A DNA stretch of 61,258 nt from a virus: positions 1 through 61,258 of the IMG/VR virus record IMGVR_UViG_3300034198_016947, one strand, 5' to 3'. The notes below the pieces were generated by a model. It was not told where the DNA came from and ran no database searches. It was given only the letters and a program-made list of their open reading frames with translations. The position numbers and the translations under genes are program-made. How positions within the stretch are numbered: the first letter of the stretch is position 1; each line of letters opens with the position of its first letter. Below, in pieces: positions 4,740-47,311 of the stretch.

Positions 4740-6605
4740 ATGACATCGAGTGCTTTCACACCAGCCGTCTTGACCGTCCCCTCTACCGGAGGGGGCACGG
4801 GACAGGGTGAACTAAATATAGTAACGAACTCCATCGCTGCCGCTGATACCACGGGGTGGACGGGTGCTGGACGCAGTACGGGAGGCGGACCTCTTTCTCC
4901 TACTATCGGTACCTACTTCACAGTAACAGCCGGCAACAGTGGAGAAGGCTCCCTCTCTGGCGCGTACGCCAGCCTGACGTTGCCTTCCAGCCTTCAGAAC
5001 AAGAAGCTGAAAGTAGAATTCTACTTCACTTCGTCTACGGACGTTTACTACGTTTCGGTGAGAAAAGCTGGTGTCAGGGTGCCTCTGTCTACAGATAGTG
5101 TTGGAGCTACTGCCTTACCAACCTCTACTACCGGCAAGTTTGTCGCTTACTTTGACACTGACAACAGTGGTAGCTGGACTGTCCATCTCACCCGTGTTAC
5201 TGGAAGTGGAAGCTCCCTCCAATTTACTAACGTGGTCGTAGGCCCAGGAATCCAACCCCAAGGTGCTGTGGTAGGTGAGTGGACTAGTTACACTCCTACG
5301 TTCTCTGGGTTTGGTACTGTTACTACTCAAAATTTTCTCTGGAGGAGAGTAGGAGACTCGATTCAAATCGAAGGTACCTTTCAGGCAGGAACTGTTGCTG
5401 CTACAGCAGCGTCTATTACTCTACCACTGTCATTTACCTACTCTAAGTTTCCTAATGCAAATGGCTGGGGTACCTCAGTAGGGCACTACAACAACAATCA
5501 AACAACTTCCGGTATAGTTCTGGCTGCAGCGGCTGGTGGTAATTTACTCAACTTTGCTGGGGCTGGAACAACAACAGTAACTGCAACAGGAACGACTGTA
5601 GCTGGTGCCAGTAGCGGTGTGGTGACACTTTTTGCTCAAGTTCCAATTGACCAATGGGCAGGCTCCGGTACCGTCCAACTCGCTCAGAATGATGTAGAGT
5701 ACGCGTACAATACTAGTGGACTTACTACAGCTGGTGGTTCTAATACTCTTGCGTTTGGCTACGGCCCGGCGGGAGCTGTGTTAGGGTCTATTGCATCTAC
5801 TACTCAGGCGACCAGCTATACCACCATGCGTGTCAGATTTCAGACACCTATACAGGCCGGGGATTCCATTGTTGTTGAATTTGATGGTGGTCAAAATCAG
5901 TGGATGCCAGCACCAAACCGGTCCCCTTGGATAATTAATAACGCAGCTGTATACGGAGTACAGGCTGTTCCTGTATTTGGAAGTTTGACCGATGTTGATG
6001 TTCTTTTTGGTAACTCCGGACAGCAGAGTTTAGGAGCAACGACTTACGGCTCAAGCGGCTCAGCCTGGTCAAATATATCTACATGGAAGTGGAGGGTAAG
6101 GAAGTCCTCAGCGGGTGCTGCTGTCGGCGTTGGCCTGGTGGCCAAGGATTCGGCTGGTCTCTTACCTGCTTACAACACCAACCTAGACGATGCTACAGCT
6201 ACTAGGCTGGGATTGAAACAGTATCTAGGAAGCGGTAGCTATGTAGGCGGAGCAGCACCAACTATTACACTAACAGCTGGTGGAGGTACACTATCTAGTT
6301 ACCGTTCAGTATGTGTGCCGTATCAGTGTCAAGATGGTACATGGAGACTAAAGTTTAATATTTACGGTAACCTATCATCCTTACCCAGAACGACTGTTCA
6401 ATACTCAATTACCGGAGTGGTGTTTATTTCGAGCACATCACAAGCAGTTGCTGGGTTTGTGTCGGGAACCACCGTACCACCACGAGCTGGGTGTGATAGC
6501 GGGGCAGCGACTGTTACGCTAGACTTCGCGTCAACAACGACTACCAGTGCCTCGGTTAGTGGTGATGTCGAACTGGCTTCCAAACCAACTTGGGCCTACA
6601 GCTAA
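4740..6605 (+). CDS. Tail fibre protein, 621 aa
   Basis: A Gly/Ser/Thr-rich beta protein. The N-terminal half holds a carbohydrate-binding-like sandwich (about residues 25-170) that ends at a proline/glycine boundary (GPGIQPQGAVVGEWTSYTP). GEWTSYTPTFSGFGT is a phrase common in fibre proteins that bind polysaccharide. A second sandwich follows, then a C-terminal domain. No lyase or hydrolase catalytic motif is evident. It is the last of the fibre block and abuts the following lipoprotein gene (TAA directly before GTG). Confidence 0.8.
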   Translation: MTSSAFTPAVLTVPSTGGGTGQGELNIVTNSIAAADTTGWTGAGRSTGGGPLSPTIGTYFTVTAGNSGEGSLSGAYASLTLPSSLQNKKLKVEFYFTSSTDVYYVSVRKAGVRVPLSTDSVGATALPTSTTGKFVAYFDTDNSGSWTVHLTRVTGSGSSLQFTNVVVGPGIQPQGAVVGEWTSYTPTFSGFGTVTTQNFLWRRVGDSIQIEGTFQAGTVAATAASITLPLSFTYSKFPNANGWGTSVGHYNNNQTTSGIVLAAAAGGNLLNFAGAGTTTVTATGTTVAGASSGVVTLFAQVPIDQWAGSGTVQLAQNDVEYAYNTSGLTTAGGSNTLAFGYGPAGAVLGSIASTTQATSYTTMRVRFQTPIQAGDSIVVEFDGGQNQWMPAPNRSPWIINNAAVYGVQAVPVFGSLTDVDVLFGNSGQQSLGATTYGSSGSAWSNISTWKWRVRKSSAGAAVGVGLVAKDSAGLLPAYNTNLDDATATRLGLKQYLGSGSYVGGAAPTITLTAGGGTLSSYRSVCVPYQCQDGTWRLKFNIYGNLSSLPRTTVQYSITGVVFISSTSQAVAGFVSGTTVPPRAGCDSGAATVTLDFASTTTTSASVSGDVELASKPTWAYS

Positions 6606-31380: not shown

Positions 31381-31549
31381 GCCCACGGCTGTACCCCAAT
31401 TCTGCTAGTGTTTCTCTCGCTAACTCTACTGCCACATCGACCAGCTCGCTCGGCTTCGTGTCATAGTCAGACCGTGCGTAAACGAAACCAAGGCAAGCGA
31501 TGGTGGCGGCAAACAGTTTCTCATCGTAAGTAGCTGAAGGTGTTTTCAT
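31373..31549 (-). CDS. Hypothetical protein, 58 aa
   Basis: ATG overlaps previous stop (ATGA). Helical: YDEKLFAATIACLGFVYARS and ELVDVAVELARETLAELG. No known domain. Confidence 0.5.
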   Translation of the reverse strand: MKTPSATYDEKLFAATIACLGFVYARSDYDTKPSELVDVAVELARETLAELGYSRGHA

Positions 31550-32022
31550 TTCTTCTCCATTAGTGTTCGTACGAGTGAGGGCCAGTTTCTAGAAGCAAGG
31601 TAACTTGGTAGAATGTAGGGATTCATTATCGCTATTGCTTCTTCTCCAGTGTGGTCGAGGGCTAAAGCACAGTGACCGAGTTCGTGGTAAACGAGAGTCC
31701 GCCTCTCCCATTCATCAGACGCTTCCCAGAAGGGACGAGAGAGTACGACAGCAAATCCTGGTTGACAGTAGCCGGCTATGCCTGTCTTCACCTTATCACT
31801 GAGGATGATATCCTTGACGCGGGAGCATCCTTGGTCATAATAGTTGGCGTCTGCTACAAACTCTTCAACGTAGGGGAGAATCTCCGCGTCTACCTTTGGT
31901 GAGATTCTAGCTAGCGTACATGGCTTCACCGCTGGGTTGCTGTGGCGGGAAATCGTTGTCAGTCCAGCCGCGCAAGAGGAGGACAGTATAGCTGCCAGTA
32001 CTGTGGATAGTAGCTTACCCAT
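31546..32022 (-). CDS. Secreted zinc metalloprotease-like protein
   Basis: 158 residues. Signal-like N-terminus ending SSSC (Cys17), a weak lipobox, so export and perhaps lipidation. VYHELGHCALALDH gives HExxH (His113-Glu114-His117) with a further His124, the layout of small extracytoplasmic zincins of the type seen in bacterial lipoproteins (YHELGHC phrase). Five cysteines may form disulphides. Periplasmic substrate unknown. One of several envelope-directed enzymes in the minus arm. Confidence 0.65.
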   Translation of the reverse strand: MGKLLSTVLAAILSSSCAAGLTTISRHSNPAVKPCTLARISPKVDAEILPYVEEFVADANYYDQGCSRVKDIILSDKVKTGIAGYCQPGFAVVLSRPFWEASDEWERRTLVYHELGHCALALDHTGEEAIAIMNPYILPSYLASRNWPSLVRTLMEKK

Positions 32023-32923: not shown

Positions 32924-33403
32924 TCACTCCTCTAATTTTATGCCGGCCAATGTCTTTGATACGGCAGCCGAGCCTTTCAGTGGGCAGGTTCCACCTAGTT
33001 GGCGATTGAGTTCTTGATATGCGTCCTTCTCTAGTATCTTGACAGCGGCTGGTACTTCGGCATCGGGTACTTCAATGATGACCTCGTCGTGGAAGTCCAT
33101 TACGATTGGGTACCAGGTAATCTTAGCCTCGTCAAGTAGTCGTCGGGCTATCCTAGCGTACAGCTGGAGGATGTCGTGACCACTGGATTGCACACAGTTT
33201 GAGACTACGAAGGTCTTAGTTCCCTGAACTGTAAATCTACGTCTAGGCCCAGCGTTTAGAATATCGTACACGCGCACCGATTTCTTTTGGGATATAGGTT
33301 GATAGCTGCTGAAGAGTCCAGCCTTTGTGCCAAAGCGTAAGAGCCTGTGACTGAGATAGGTCGGTATATCGTTCAGTAAAATATTTGAAAGAGATGTCCT
33401 CAT
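32924..33403 (-). CDS. DNA polymerase I (family A), C-terminal part with split intein C-half
   Basis: 159 residues from ATG 33403 (GGAG 7 bases upstream). Residues 1-69 are the intein C-half: block F VRVYDILNAGPRRRF and block G FVVSN, cut before Cys70. The C-extein then reads CVQSSGHDILQLYARIA, continuing the Q-helix of family A polymerases, and holds motif C FHDEV with the catalytic Asp and Glu of HDE. By itself it cannot polymerise. The penultimate intein residue is Ser rather than the usual His; the terminal Asn and the +1 Cys are present. The first 161 bases overlap the end of the HNH gene in another frame. Confidence 0.85.
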   Translation of the reverse strand: MRTSLSNILLNDIPTYLSHRLLRFGTKAGLFSSYQPISQKKSVRVYDILNAGPRRRFTVQGTKTFVVSNCVQSSGHDILQLYARIARRLLDEAKITWYPIVMDFHDEVIIEVPDAEVPAAVKILEKDAYQELNRQLGGTCPLKGSAAVSKTLAGIKLEE

Positions 33404-33935
33404 TATTCCACTCCACTTTAATTGTGTCGCGTCTGTTAAACGCTTGCTCTTTTCTGGTAGCCCAGCGCAAGTTACCCGGTTGGTATCCGAGGTCATTATC
33501 TATACGGTCCAAGGTTTTACCATAAACATATCCCGGCAACTGCCGAACGTAGTCAATGAATGCCCGCGGGTTGTCCTTCCATTCAGGAGCCAACTTTATA
33601 CCTACAGCACCGTAGCTGTGATACCCGTTAACGCTGGCGTAAGTTGTTCTGTTTACAATTGATTTGTAGTGTTTAAAAAATTTACGGTCTGTCTCGTCCC
33701 GAAATGTAAATAGTCCGTTTCGTTTTTGGAAACACAACTTGCACCCTAGAATTTTCTGTCCACGTAAATTGGTCAATGCCTGTCGACTGGTACCATGTTC
33801 ACACTTAACGTCAACGTAAGTATGTCCTTTTCCATTTCTTCGCCAGTAAATGGGCGACACTACAACAAAGTCTCCAAAGACCTGACCAACTATTTCCGGG
33901 TGTTGTTTCGTAGACGCTTTCCAATTGTCCGACAT
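33243..33935 (-). CDS. HNH homing endonuclease nested in the split intein
   Basis: 230 residues from ATG 33935, where AAGGAGG lies 6 bases upstream. The C-terminal half contains GVKL-type HNH sequence: GYHSYGAVGIKLAPEW, KTLDRIDNDLGYQPGNLRWA, TRKEQAFNRRD, the pattern of phage HNH homing endonucleases. The N-terminus has a zinc-ribbon-like CEHGTS and CKLCF. The gene begins in the intein N-half and ends inside block F of the C-half, both in a shifted frame, so it is an independent gene occupying the place of the usual in-frame intein endonuclease domain. It probably cuts intein-free alleles of the polymerase gene. Confidence 0.85.
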   Translation of the reverse strand: MSDNWKASTKQHPEIVGQVFGDFVVVSPIYWRRNGKGHTYVDVKCEHGTSRQALTNLRGQKILGCKLCFQKRNGLFTFRDETDRKFFKHYKSIVNRTTYASVNGYHSYGAVGIKLAPEWKDNPRAFIDYVRQLPGYVYGKTLDRIDNDLGYQPGNLRWATRKEQAFNRRDTIKVEWNNEDISFKYFTERYTDLSQSQALTLWHKGWTLQQLSTYIPKEIGARVRYSKRWA

Positions 33936-36090
33936 ATCGGGCCTCCTTCTTACTAACATCATCAACAAATACATCGTGGTCTGGTGTCATGTCAATCCCA
34001 TTCAGTGACAGAACTTCTTTCTCTCCTTGAGAGATAACTCCAGAGTGACATACCCATTCGATACCATCCCATACCTTGTCAGTCAGTTGTATCTCTTCAA
34101 TCTTAACCAGTCCTCGTTGTGTGTGAACGAGAGTACCTTCAGCGAGACAGCGGTTGAGTAAGTCCTTAGTATACTTCTCGTCGACGCACATCGGACGACC
34201 GAAGGCGTTCTCAACATATCCGCCATTTCTCCGCCACTCGTTGAGCAGCCAGTCGGAGTAAGCGTTGACGCCGGACTTAGCTTCTTGCAATGCTAGATGC
34301 ATAGCTTCCACTTCGTCCAGTGGCATGTCGATACCTTCGAGGGAGAGAATCTTTTGTTTCTTCTTCACCCCGCTCCCGTAGTTATCACTGAGTATAAGTA
34401 GCTTGGCAATGGAACGTTCCTTCTTGCAGGCTTTCTTCGCTGCGTCAATAGTCTCGGGTGTAGGATTCAGTCTGTCATAACCCGCGGCTACAATCTTCTC
34501 GCCGAGGCCTGGCATCAACGCACCGTAGAAAAGGTAGATGTCATTCTTCTTAGCGTTAGGTCCGTAGAGGGCGAGCAAGTTATCATCTTGACTCAACTCT
34601 GCTGTGACTACCATCTCAAGTGCGTTCACATCACAATCAACAAAGCTATGTCCCGGCCTAGAGATGAAGCCGCTAAGAGTTCCTTTAGTCTTAGGCATCT
34701 GCTGTAGGTTGGGCTCCCTGCCGCTGAGTCTACCAGTAACAGTGCCTGGCATTCTAAATGAGGGGTGGATAGTGGGACGAGAGACAGTCCTCTCTAAGTA
34801 GTCGGTGAGGTAGCTGCTCTCCTTAAACCTCAGCGCACGGTCGATGAGGAGCTTGCCGACCTCGCCCATACTCTTTAATGCGTCCTCTCCTACAGCAGGC
34901 TGCCCGCTGTCGGTCGTAAGTTTCACTGGATACTTGAGGTGGTCGTAAAGGAGACCTCGTAACTGGTCTCCTGACTGAATGTTGAAGAGATAGTCGGCAT
35001 CTAGTCCCTGTTCGACAGCGTCCATTCTAGCCCGCCACTTCTCCCAGTTCTTGCTGACGGTCGGAGGTACACTGGTTGCCTCCTTCCACTTGAGCCAGTT
35101 CTTGCTTACTGTCTTCCCGTCTTTCAGAAACTGAGCGGGCTCTTTACGTTCCTTCTGTTTGAGGAAGCGTTCGGGTTCTGCTGCTGCCAGTTCCAGATAC
35201 TTGGCCTTCTCCCATTCGTAGATGTACTCTTCCACATCGGGATGGTTACGGAAGGCAGCTTCCAGCGTAGCGATGTCGGACTGTAGCTGGTGCTGGTGTC
35301 CCTCCCATTGAGTGCGGTTGGTCATGATGCCATGTATCTTTTGGTCAATGTGGACGAGGACATGCGGAAGGAAGTCCTCTTGGTGGTAAGAGAGTACGCG
35401 AGGGAAACGTTCGAGCAGAGGCTGAAAGAACTCGACCATCAATAGGTAGGTAGCTTCAGCATCCAGCACGCAGTACTGTCCTAGTATATTAGCAGGAGCC
35501 CTCCACATAGCTTCCTTCTGTGGGGAGCCGTTGTGTTTCTTATAGCCGTTGTCGACTAGCCAGTTGTCGAGGTCAGTCTCGTTGGTGTTACTCCACATGA
35601 GAACGTCAGTCATCGCATCTTTCAGCGACCACTTCTGTCCTTCCCAGCCTTCGTTTGCTAGCTGCATATACATCGCGTAGGTACAAGCATACCAGTGAGA
35701 GTGTTGATTGAAGTCCCGTCTCACCCACCCCCCGTCGAAGTAGACGTTGTGAGCGAGTAGACCCCGGTGTTTGGTAATGATGTCTTCTAGTAGGGCCCAT
35801 ACTTGAAAGCTGTAAGCGGTATCGCGGGTATCAAGGTAACAACTGCCATTGTCCCAAGCGAGGCCAACGCCTACGACATGAGTCTCGTCAGAAGACAGCG
35901 AGTAGTCGGAGCCCTTGGTTTCAAAGTCGATAGCAATCAAGCGGGAAGAAAGAGCAGACCGAAGAAGTTCCTCGGCCTGCCCTGAAGGGGGACACACTAT
36001 CTGAAAACCATCACCAGTTCTAGCTGGAGTGGGTTTCGGTTCTATGAGGATGAAGCGGGGATGGGTAGAGAGGGTCACGTTGTCTGCCAT
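33811..36090 (-). CDS. DNA polymerase I (family A), N-terminal part with split intein N-half
   Basis: 759 residues from ATG 36090 (GGGAG 6 bases upstream). Proofreading 3'-5' exonuclease: DFETKG (Asp55, Glu57), HNVYFDGGW, YCVLDAEATYLL. Polymerase motif A CDVNALEMVV, motif B RSIAKLLILSDNYGSG. Cys648 starts an intein: block A CLAEGTLVHTQRGLVKIEEI, block B GIDMTPDHDVFV. The last 45 or so residues read into the start of the HNH gene and are probably a frayed end. Splicing to the gene at 33403 would join LLNR to CVQSSGHD, giving a 737-residue enzyme. The insertion point is between motif B and the HDE motif, next to conserved Asn and Gln. Confidence 0.9.
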   Translation of the reverse strand: MADNVTLSTHPRFILIEPKPTPARTGDGFQIVCPPSGQAEELLRSALSSRLIAIDFETKGSDYSLSSDETHVVGVGLAWDNGSCYLDTRDTAYSFQVWALLEDIITKHRGLLAHNVYFDGGWVRRDFNQHSHWYACTYAMYMQLANEGWEGQKWSLKDAMTDVLMWSNTNETDLDNWLVDNGYKKHNGSPQKEAMWRAPANILGQYCVLDAEATYLLMVEFFQPLLERFPRVLSYHQEDFLPHVLVHIDQKIHGIMTNRTQWEGHQHQLQSDIATLEAAFRNHPDVEEYIYEWEKAKYLELAAAEPERFLKQKERKEPAQFLKDGKTVSKNWLKWKEATSVPPTVSKNWEKWRARMDAVEQGLDADYLFNIQSGDQLRGLLYDHLKYPVKLTTDSGQPAVGEDALKSMGEVGKLLIDRALRFKESSYLTDYLERTVSRPTIHPSFRMPGTVTGRLSGREPNLQQMPKTKGTLSGFISRPGHSFVDCDVNALEMVVTAELSQDDNLLALYGPNAKKNDIYLFYGALMPGLGEKIVAAGYDRLNPTPETIDAAKKACKKERSIAKLLILSDNYGSGVKKKQKILSLEGIDMPLDEVEAMHLALQEAKSGVNAYSDWLLNEWRRNGGYVENAFGRPMCVDEKYTKDLLNRCLAEGTLVHTQRGLVKIEEIQLTDKVWDGIEWVCHSGVISQGEKEVLSLNGIDMTPDHDVFVDDVSKKEARYVGQLESVYETTPGNSWSGLWRLCCSVAHLLAKKWKRTYLR

Positions 36091-38140: not shown

Positions 38141-38297
38141 CCTTGGCCATCTCCTCAGCTTTCTTGAGGACGTTATTAATGTAGTGGATGAGTGCCATCT
38201 TGGCTATCTTATCCACTGGGTGATTGACCGTGTTGGCGAATGCTAGTACACTGTCGCCGTCTTCGCCACTCATTGTAAAGTTTACTCGTACTCTCAT
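38043..38297 (-). CDS. Hypothetical protein, 84 aa
   Basis: Start overlaps previous stop (ATGA). RVRVNFTMSGEDGDSVLAFA then VDKIAKMALIHYINNVL, possibly a small ribbon-helix-helix-like DNA-binding domain, then a disordered Ser/Thr tail. Speculative. Confidence 0.5.
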   Translation of the reverse strand: MRVRVNFTMSGEDGDSVLAFANTVNHPVDKIAKMALIHYINNVLKKAEEMAKDVTGDASGQSQLHPAGTTETSNASSDSQALSD

Positions 38298-39010
38298 TTT
38301 GTCACCTCTACTTTCTTAATGAATTGCTCATGAATGTATTGGATAGTTGTTTGGTCTAAAAAGAATCCACCAATCTTGGCAGTGTTCAACGCGACACCTT
38401 CGTCTAGGAATGCGTTGCCCACCTTAGAAGAAACATCAACAAAGAATCCAGGAGCTAGCTTATCAAGTTGAGTAGCGTGGTGGAGAGTCTCGTTAGTGAA
38501 GTGCCAGTCAATAACAGGCTTAGCTACTGGTAGGAACTTATAGAGTTCATCCTTTATCATCTTGTCACTGAGAGACATCTGCTTACCGAGAACCTTAGAC
38601 ATGTCAGCGGTGAGTGGGCCTTGGTAAAAGACGCGAACTGGATGCCAGAGGAGAAATGCGTGTGGTGTGGAGTAGCGTTCATCGCAGTGAAGGAGTAATT
38701 GGAATGCCATGCTGGCAGCTACGCTGCGGACGAGGCAACGAAACCGTACGCCTTCAGCACGCAGTGCTTCCATCCGGTCGACGATGAGGTAACCAGCAAC
38801 AAGACTTCCACCCGGTGAGGAGATGACAACATCGACTGGGGCATCTTTATCTTTAGCTACTAGCTTATCGAACGTGGACAAAACTGGGCCGACAATCCCG
38901 CCAGTGATAGGGCCTTCGATGACGATGGTTCTCTCCGGTTGGAGGGTGGTCGAAGCTAGCGCCAGGTTGCTAGCTAAGAACGTCATAATTACAACTAAAA
39001 AGTTTCTCAT
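38294..39010 (-). CDS. ClpP/SppA-like serine protease with signal peptide
   Basis: 238 residues from ATG 39010 (overlaps the previous stop, ATGA). Signal peptide MRNFLVVIMTFLASNLALAS (cleavage after about residue 19). The crotonase/ClpP fold is shown by VVISSPGGSL (oxyanion glycines, 62-70), VRSVAASMAFQLL with nucleophile Ser100, and AFLLWHPVR with His123, in the order and spacing of ClpP. The third catalytic residue is probably an Asp in the C-terminal half. Unlike cytoplasmic ClpP it should act in the periplasm. Directly downstream of a secreted transglycosylase. Confidence 0.8.
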   Translation of the reverse strand: MRNFLVVIMTFLASNLALASTTLQPERTIVIEGPITGGIVGPVLSTFDKLVAKDKDAPVDVVISSPGGSLVAGYLIVDRMEALRAEGVRFRCLVRSVAASMAFQLLLHCDERYSTPHAFLLWHPVRVFYQGPLTADMSKVLGKQMSLSDKMIKDELYKFLPVAKPVIDWHFTNETLHHATQLDKLAPGFFVDVSSKVGNAFLDEGVALNTAKIGGFFLDQTTIQYIHEQFIKKVEVTK

Positions 39011-39648
39011 TGTTTGCACCTTCCAAGTAAGGAGTGAACGCGGAAGACGTACCGCGTGGTCTCTGGGGTTAGGGTACCAGTATTTGTAAGTCGAGTCAAC
39101 TGTTGATAGCCTCCATTGTAGAGCACTAGCGCATGAAACACATTACCTTCAGTCTGTTTCAGATAGTAATCAAGTAGACACGTTCCGTACTTGACATTGT
39201 CAGTGAGTCCTAGTAACCTTATGAGCAGAGCCGAATCGCTCTCCCCCAAAGTCGGTCGAAGGACTGGGCACTGACGCTCAGCTTCCTTCGCTCCGATGAG
39301 AGTCATCTGCATGAGGCCGACAGCTCCCGCCGGAGACTGGACTATCCTGTTCATATTACTTTCTACCATCGCTACTGCTACAGCCAGACGCAAGAAGTCT
39401 GGTTCCACCGTCGGAGAGTAATCGTAGATGGTACGGAAAACGCGACTGAGTTCCCTATCGGAGATGGGACTATCTGCTGTGATGGCTGTCGCACATTCAT
39501 ACCAGCGAGTGAGTTCGAGTGGGAACGCCATCGGCCTCAGTTCCACAACAGGAAGAGAGTTACTTCTTGAGGCGGTACTGACGAGTAACGGACTGATTAT
39601 TAGCAGCGCGCATAGCAATAGTGCGCTGTTTCTTTTTGCTGTATTCAT
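39007..39648 (-). CDS. Secreted lytic transglycosylase (SLT family)
   Basis: 213 residues. Signal peptide about residues 1-27 (ALLLCALLIISPLLVSTA). SLT pattern: VAMVESNMNR with catalytic Glu96, SPAGAVGLMQMT, then NVKYGTCLLDYYLK and ALVLYNGG. It should cleave peptidoglycan between MurNAc and GlcNAc in the periplasm. Unusual for lying in the early/replication arm, co-transcribed with the ClpP-like protease, not in a lysis cassette. Start may be ATG 39648 or GTG 39651. Confidence 0.8.
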   Translation of the reverse strand: MNTAKRNSALLLCALLIISPLLVSTASRSNSLPVVELRPMAFPLELTRWYECATAITADSPISDRELSRVFRTIYDYSPTVEPDFLRLAVAVAMVESNMNRIVQSPAGAVGLMQMTLIGAKEAERQCPVLRPTLGESDSALLIRLLGLTDNVKYGTCLLDYYLKQTEGNVFHALVLYNGGYQQLTRLTNTGTLTPETTRYVFRVHSLLGRCKQ

Positions 39649-46654: not shown

Positions 46655-47311
46655 ATGGCACCGAGACGTAGTAATCATAAAGACAAGAAATATAACCACC
46701 TTACGATGCTCTATCCCATCCGTTCTGGGGGTAGAGGTAAGGGTATGTATTGGCTCGCCCAATGCGATTGCGGCAGGTTGAAGGAAGTACGGGGTACAGA
46801 AGCTGCCAATGGCTACATCAAAACGTGCGGAGGGTGCGAACATCACAAGGCATTGCTTCAAAGTAACGCTATGGACACTGCCCTCAAAGCGACAGGTAAG
46901 TTTTCTCGCATCGCCGGCCTCAGAGCGCAGCTCCGTCGCTACATCAAGTCGGCCCTAGATAGACAAATCATTTGGTCCCTAAGTCCCGAAGAGTTCTTAC
47001 AAATTGTAGAACAGGACTGTACCTACTGTGGGGCGGCTCCTCGCGTCTACAAGGCGAAGCAATTCGGCCGCAAGGGTAGGACCGTCAAGGCGTTAATGAA
47101 CGGTATTGACAGGATAAACAGTAAGCTCGGCTACAGTATGGACAACGTAGTTCCATGCTGTAGTGTCTGTAATAGAATGAAGATGGCCACTGATACAAAG
47201 ACCTTCCTCGACCACTGCACTATAATTGCTAGAAGACGCTTGACGATAGAGGAAGAGTCTGCTAAGGTAAGTACGTTCACCGAAGAGGCGACAAGACTGT
47301 CTGTAAGGTGA
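46655..47311 (+). CDS. HNH endonuclease, free-standing
   Basis: 218 residues. N-terminal zinc finger (CDCG, CGGC about residues 37-63), then CTYCGAAP, NGIDRINSKLGYSMDNVVPC and CSVCNRMKMATD: the treble-clef HNH with two CxxC pairs. A helical linker with basic residues separates the two. Typical of phage homing endonucleases that sit near packaging genes; some cooperate with terminase. No intron or intein surrounds it. Confidence 0.8.
   Translation: MAPRRSNHKDKKYNHLTMLYPIRSGGRGKGMYWLAQCDCGRLKEVRGTEAANGYIKTCGGCEHHKALLQSNAMDTALKATGKFSRIAGLRAQLRRYIKSALDRQIIWSLSPEEFLQIVEQDCTYCGAAPRVYKAKQFGRKGRTVKALMNGIDRINSKLGYSMDNVVPCCSVCNRMKMATDTKTFLDHCTIIARRRLTIEEESAKVSTFTEEATRLSVR

Follow-up and report, generated by a model that had tools for sequence, protein, structure and literature searches.

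A phage family A DNA polymerase apparently fractured by a split intein, with an out-of-frame HNH endonuclease gene overlapping both halves

The stretch of DNA analysed here, referred to below as the window, comprises positions 1 to 61,258 of IMG/VR record IMGVR_UViG_3300034198_016947, a phage contig that encodes terminase, portal, head and tail-fibre genes. On its minus strand a single family A DNA polymerase is encoded by two open reading frames (ORFs), the first of which continues into the N-terminal half of an intein while the second carries the C-terminal half, and an HNH endonuclease gene lies between them in a further frame, overlapping both. The best explanation of this arrangement, and one held here with considerable confidence, is that three genes would be translated separately, that the intein halves would splice in trans, that the HNH enzyme would act in homing and that the element would derive from a contiguous intein; splicing activity, cleavage, homing and the direction of change are features that we infer.

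The first ORF (36090..33811, minus strand, 759 residues) contains the exonuclease and polymerase motifs A and B, followed by the intein N-half from Cys648 (codon at 34149), which reads CLAEGTLVHTQRGLVKIEEI...TPDHDVF. The second ORF (33403, or 33496, to 32924, minus strand) contains the intein C-half, ending ...FVVSN, and then CVQSSGHD and motif C. The Pfam DNA_pol_A match is divided accordingly, with positions 10-280 on the first polymerase piece and 298-375 on the second. The HNH gene overlaps the first ORF by 125 nucleotides (33935-33811) and the second by 161 nucleotides (33403-33243), and each successive ORF is in the +1 frame relative to the preceding one (N to HNH to C). The start of the second ORF is most likely ATG 33403 rather than the mechanical ORF start at 33496, as judged from the sequence around it; a GGAG lies 7 bases upstream, and the ATG is kept in two relatives described below (L002 and L070). 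A hairpin around this start has a z score of -2.5. The HNH gene (33935..33243) is preceded by AAGGAGG, and the junction of the intein C-half with the polymerase reads ...FVVSN/CVQSSGHD (here and below a slash marks a splice or insertion point). Together, these data bear out an initial annotation of the window, which had read the polymerase as two genes, placed an intein N-half at Cys648 and a C-half with a terminal Asn followed by Cys in the second gene, and given the HNH gene its own ribosome-binding site, a different frame and overlaps of about 125 and 161 bases.

A single-sequence phmmer search of the PDB with the joined intein gave no useful match; a family profile was needed. The best match of a 25-member family profile among solved structures was the NEQ068 split Pol intein (9e-5), and the profile also matched, more weakly, the PI-MtuI RecA inteins in the PDB, as well as TIGR01445 (intein_Nterm). 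Hidden Markov models (HMMs) of the N, C and HNH regions locate the intein N domain to 34149-33943 (4e-30), its C domain to 33283-33194 (2e-17) and the HNH gene to 33899-33423 (2e-45), but were built from sets that contain the window, and so these matches are not independent. Intein blocks are present in both places where the initial annotation had put them, and the class 1 intein residues C1, TPDH (TxxH), terminal Asn and C+1 are all found in the window. An AlphaFold model of a contiguous relative (L007) has a confident splicing domain (approximately residues 1-85 and 235-263; predicted local distance difference test >90) and a disordered linker. All 50 of the 50 listed Foldseek matches of this model are inteins, bacterial intein-like (BIL) domains or hedgehog autoprocessing domains, with a best E-value of only 0.007. 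A group I or group II intron was rejected as the identity of the element, no Rfam intron match being found up to an E-value of 1.

No close phage relatives of the window were found at the DNA level. A separate contig that is 66% identical (L002) contains the same three overlapping ORFs, and another (L003, 64%) contains an uninterrupted polymerase gene with ILNR/VVQSTGHD at the site (YLKDILNRVVQSTGHDI). Since the one has the same three ORFs and the other an intact gene, the arrangement is neither chance nor an assembly error. The site of the window's intein is empty in L004 and L005 as well. LLNR joined to CVQSSGHD corresponds residue for residue to the empty site apart from position +1, at which the split alleles have Cys, as splicing would require, and the empty alleles V or Q. 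The rejoining that had been proposed to restore the polymerase is precise, at LNR/C, when set against the intein-free L003. L004 (5938-9135) and L005 (6001-9135) carry a different, contiguous in-frame intein of approximately 330 residues in the motif A region of the polymerase (NLQQ/C...SQ/CPKTRG). The architecture and insertion site of the window are also found in L070, in which (region 5561-5850) the HNH ORF stops early and an HNH-like C-terminal repeat goes on in another frame over the C-half head; this early end may be a true frameshift or a sequencing error.

Codon differences among unchanged residues were compared between the window and L002. Outside the overlaps the synonymous difference ranges from 0.52, in both the N-extein and the N-intein core, through 0.57 where only the HNH gene runs, to 0.67 in the C-extein, whereas within both overlaps it falls to 0.10-0.15 whichever frame is read (Fisher P 7e-9 for the HNH frame, 1e-5 for the N frame and 7e-8 for the C frame). 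The lowered synonymous change in three frames makes all three genes look translated and constrained. The N frame is still constrained in the 41 codons that separate the HNH start from the stop of the N ORF, as is the C frame from its ATG onward. In the same comparison nonsynonymous divergence (dN) is 0.19 for the HNH gene and 0.27 for the C-extein, with synonymous divergence (dS) saturated in both, the HNH values being indicative of purifying selection; just beyond the HNH stop, 15 of 15 C-intein residues are identical (100%). The N-half tail (...SWSGLWRLCCSVAHLLAKKW...) and the C-half head (MRTSLSNILLNDIPTYLSHRLL...) show conservation in L002 and, to a lesser degree, in L070; in the comparison with L070 none of 2000 shuffles equalled the head, and the tail gave P 0.026. 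These extensions might help to bring the intein halves together, a docking role that is only a guess because both overlap HNH coding, in L070 too. The C-half head of L070 was rejected as overlap-free proof of protein-level conservation, since HNH-like coding runs in another frame there.

The HNH protein matches phrog_374 (1.3e-30) and other PHROG HNH families at 1e-30 to 1e-15; a Pfam search with it gave no match. Across the wider family, strong Shine-Dalgarno sites precede 24 of 85 HNH starts, more commonly than at background ATGs (P 7e-8). Free-standing HNH genes are few among the loci fetched. Elsewhere in the window (46655-47311, plus strand) there is a second free-standing endonuclease VII/HNH-like gene, the N-terminal domain of which matches the family of the nested HNH protein.

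Searching IMG/VR with the N and C alignments yielded about 130 loci, to which isolates and bacterial contigs were added; the loci are related to one another, and counts of them are not counts of independent events. An HNH gene lies between the blocks in 114 of 128 intein N/C pairs, in the +1 frame relative to the intein in 99, in the +2 frame in 15 and in frame in none. The intein is contiguous in 92 of the 114, with its frame open across the HNH gene, and fractured in 22; mini-inteins without HNH also occur in the family. Codons were shuffled synonymously, keeping the HNH protein, at 98 loci (76 contiguous and 22 fractured). In the contiguous loci the intein frame has 0 stops against 5.3 expected on average, and the third frame 7.1 against 7.1; in the fractured loci the N frame has 10.7 against 10.2. 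As the contiguous group is defined by its lack of stops, the telling point is the bimodality: from the summed shuffle odds only about 2 to 3 of the 98 loci would be open by chance. The comparison indicates that the intein frame is kept open where cis-splicing would need it and is free to close elsewhere. Intein similarity also correlates with HNH similarity (Mantel rho 0.50, permutation maximum 0.05). At one Arsenophonus contig locus (L147, 5001-5921) the HNH frame has decayed, with 8 stops, and the intein frame is still open.

On the HNH tree the starred branches require at least three changes of fractured state. The fractured members fall into a 17-member clade, mostly at the polA motif A site, the clade of the window, L002 and L070, and two singles (L038 and L064), each perhaps a recent break or an error. 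Lying before the Q-helix, the window's site appears to be that of contiguous polA inteins such as L106, L122 and L084, because these share the flanking motif N-x/C-VQ. An intein that carried an out-of-frame HNH gene seems to have reached its split end state in the window, and the direction from contiguous to split is one that we infer from these sequence comparisons.

A scheme that would account for these observations is as follows. The region would yield three proteins, the polymerase N-half with the intein N-half, the HNH protein, and the intein C-half with the polymerase C-half, the HNH protein being translated from a start inside the N-half and the C-half from a start inside the HNH gene. 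Once associated, the intein halves would form a single splicing domain, and trans-splicing would link LLNR to CVQSSGHD to give a whole polymerase of 737 residues (647 + 90). As a homing endonuclease, the HNH enzyme would presumably cut polymerase alleles that lack the element, which would thereby receive a copy of the cassette. The ancestor of the element would have been a contiguous intein with the HNH gene out of frame in its linker, and a break in the linker frame would have left two halves forced to splice in trans. A broader proposal, for which we would put the chances at about even, is that a large phage intein family carries its HNH homing endonuclease as an overlapping-frame gene in the linker, never fused to the intein; that loss of the linker frame together with a new C-half start has given rise to split inteins several times; and that the extensions in the window's clade may dock the halves.

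Several observations weigh against this interpretation. The residue preceding the terminal Asn is Ser in both the window and L002, so that the usual His is missing. A His at this position is usual in class 1 inteins but not universal, and the penultimate Ser is also found in contiguous members (for example L065 and L071). A structure model of the HNH protein gave no clear or convincing match in a PDB fold search. HNH residue 111 (33605-33603, in the YGGRGI motif) is Val in the window and Ala in L002, where approximately 90% of the family have Arg, and as a consequence of this departure the nuclease activity may be altered in the window. The intein tree, built from few columns, is weakly supported and does not firmly place the nearest contiguous relatives of the window, and because the trees are unrooted they do not by themselves give the direction from contiguous to split.

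Four other explanations were considered. The polymerase halves might associate and work unspliced, as genes in pieces, with the intein halves as inert leftovers; there is a phage ribonucleotide reductase, cited in PMC10448857, that a homing endonuclease has split and that functions as two pieces, and the penultimate residue is Ser instead of the usual His. This is very unlikely given that Cys1, TxxH, the terminal Asn and Cys+1 are all retained in the window and L002, that the C-intein is invariant between them past the HNH stop, and that Cys at +1 is present in the split alleles and absent from the empty ones. Programmed frameshifting could instead produce one long N-intein/HNH/C-intein polypeptide for ordinary cis-splicing, as the regular +1 step from each ORF to the next might suggest. 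It would require two +1 shifts, however, and there are Shine-Dalgarno-like sites at both internal starts; moreover, constraint that reaches the N frame's own stop, and that sets in with the C frame's own ATG, speaks for three proteins with separate starts, and frameshifting is judged highly improbable. That the gene is dead, whether as the decayed polymerase of a defective phage or as one made dispensable, is given hardly any credence: the atypical HNH residue 111 is in its favour, but the HNH gene and the two polymerase halves are all intact, with their proteins conserved in two contigs approximately 66% identical, the low dN against saturated dS holds for the HNH gene and the C-extein alike, and the larger genes of the window that were checked included no other polymerase.

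A rather less remote alternative, though still an unlikely one, concerns history alone, namely that the window's arrangement arose from something other than a contiguous intein with an out-of-frame HNH gene. The HNH-free mini-inteins of the family would allow this, and good support is lacking for nesting the window's HNH clade among contiguous members. The derivation from a contiguous intein is nevertheless preferred, as contiguous out-of-frame cases are commoner than fractured ones (92 against 22), the single fractured members L038 and L064 lie within contiguous clades, and intein and HNH similarities go together.

The features of the fractured locus are collected in Table 1. Two neighbouring genes on the minus strand were also recorded. 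A ClpP-like 'head maturation protease' family match lies near the replication genes (38294-39019), and a small ORF with a HELGHCAL metallopeptidase-like motif (31546-32022) lies downstream of the polymerase, as it does in L002-L005.

Table 1. Features assigned to the polymerase, intein and HNH genes of the window
Feature	Position	Strand	Evidence
Polymerase N-extein, 3'-5' exonuclease and motifs A and B, ending ...KDLLNR	34150..36090	-	Pfam DNA_pol_A_exo1, DNA_pol_A 10-280
Intein N-half core, Cys1 to past the TPDH block	33943..34149	-	Alignment; profile matches to solved inteins
N-half tail beyond the intein core, mostly over the HNH gene, stop 33811	33811..33942	-	Conservation with L002; lowered synonymous change
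Shine-Dalgarno AAGGAGG for the HNH gene	33942..33948	-	Sequence; GGAGG kept in L002 and L070
HNH endonuclease gene, ATG 33935, +1 frame relative to the N-half	33243..33935	-	phrog_374 1.3e-30; family alignment
GGAG site 5' of the C-half start	33411..33414	-	Sequence; comparable sites in L002 and L070
C-half head preceding the intein C block, probable start ATG 33403, over the HNH gene	33284..33403	-	ATG kept in L002; lowered synonymous change
Intein C-half core VRVYDILNAGPRRRFTVQGTKTFVVSN, terminal Asn 33199-33197	33197..33283	-	HMM match; alignment
Polymerase C-extein from Cys+1, CVQSSGHD...FHDEV (motif C), stop 32924	32924..33196	-	Pfam DNA_pol_A 298-375; L003 empty site

The origin of natural split inteins is an old question, and within this family the intact, split, HNH-free and empty states occur side by side in related phages, which makes each step testable. 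If the scheme is true, loss of the linker frame would be a direct route to gene fracture. The family also suggests that homing endonuclease genes can ride in inteins as overlapping genes, often overlooked by annotation, and it supplies candidate split inteins for protein engineering. Three isolate phages illustrate the overlooked cases. In APSE-1 (L152, NC_000935.1) the HNH gene P46 overlaps the polymerase gene P45, an overlap recorded without comment; in Sodalis phage SO-1 (L150, NC_013600.1) gp38/gp39 belong to the same intein family and are annotated as a type I intron; and in Salmonella phage Ent1 (L151, NC_019539.1) gp37 has an annotated intein, with the out-of-frame HNH gene unlisted. 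All three, like the window, have this intein family in the polymerase with HNH out of frame, but their inteins are contiguous and expected to splice in cis. Pseudomonas phage MR14 is a further isolate with a contiguous intein.

Dassa et al. (2009, Nucleic Acids Res. 37:2560) reportedly described genes fractured by split inteins and accompanied by free-standing endonuclease genes, a Vsr-like enzyme being said to occur at about half of the loci. The likeness to such genes that the initial annotation had drawn holds, with two intein-bearing ORFs, an endonuclease gene between them and a rejoined empty homologue. In both, a conserved phage DNA enzyme is broken by a split intein with an endonuclease gene between the halves; in the window this is an HNH rather than a Vsr-like enzyme, the intein-bearing ORFs on either side both overlap its gene, and an HNH gene of the same kind occurs out of frame in contiguous relatives. 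As fractured genes had already been described, the window adds another example, here with an HNH enzyme whose gene overlaps the halves. NEQ068 of Nanoarchaeum equitans is likewise a split polymerase intein, and is the closest sequence match among solved structures; it belongs to an archaeal family B polymerase and is not known to have an endonuclease gene between its halves. In the ShiLan methylase insertion an out-of-frame HNH gene lies in a phage gene and no splicing domain was found (PMC11855218). The hidden HNH gene in another frame is common to both, whereas the window element is an intein, one whose N frame is closed where that of 92 contiguous relatives is open. For overlapping frames PMC11855218 refers to Gosselin et al. 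(bioRxiv 2025, 10.1101/2025.01.02.630785), whose preprint deals with inteins of 'non-canonical architecture' in actinobacteriophages and, to go by that citation, may already report out-of-frame HNH genes in inteins. Finally, the dCTP deaminase intein of cyanophage CL131, with an HNH_3 domain, has been shown to be excised in E. coli (PMC6293099); like that of the window it is a phage intein with an HNH endonuclease, but there the HNH domain is in frame.
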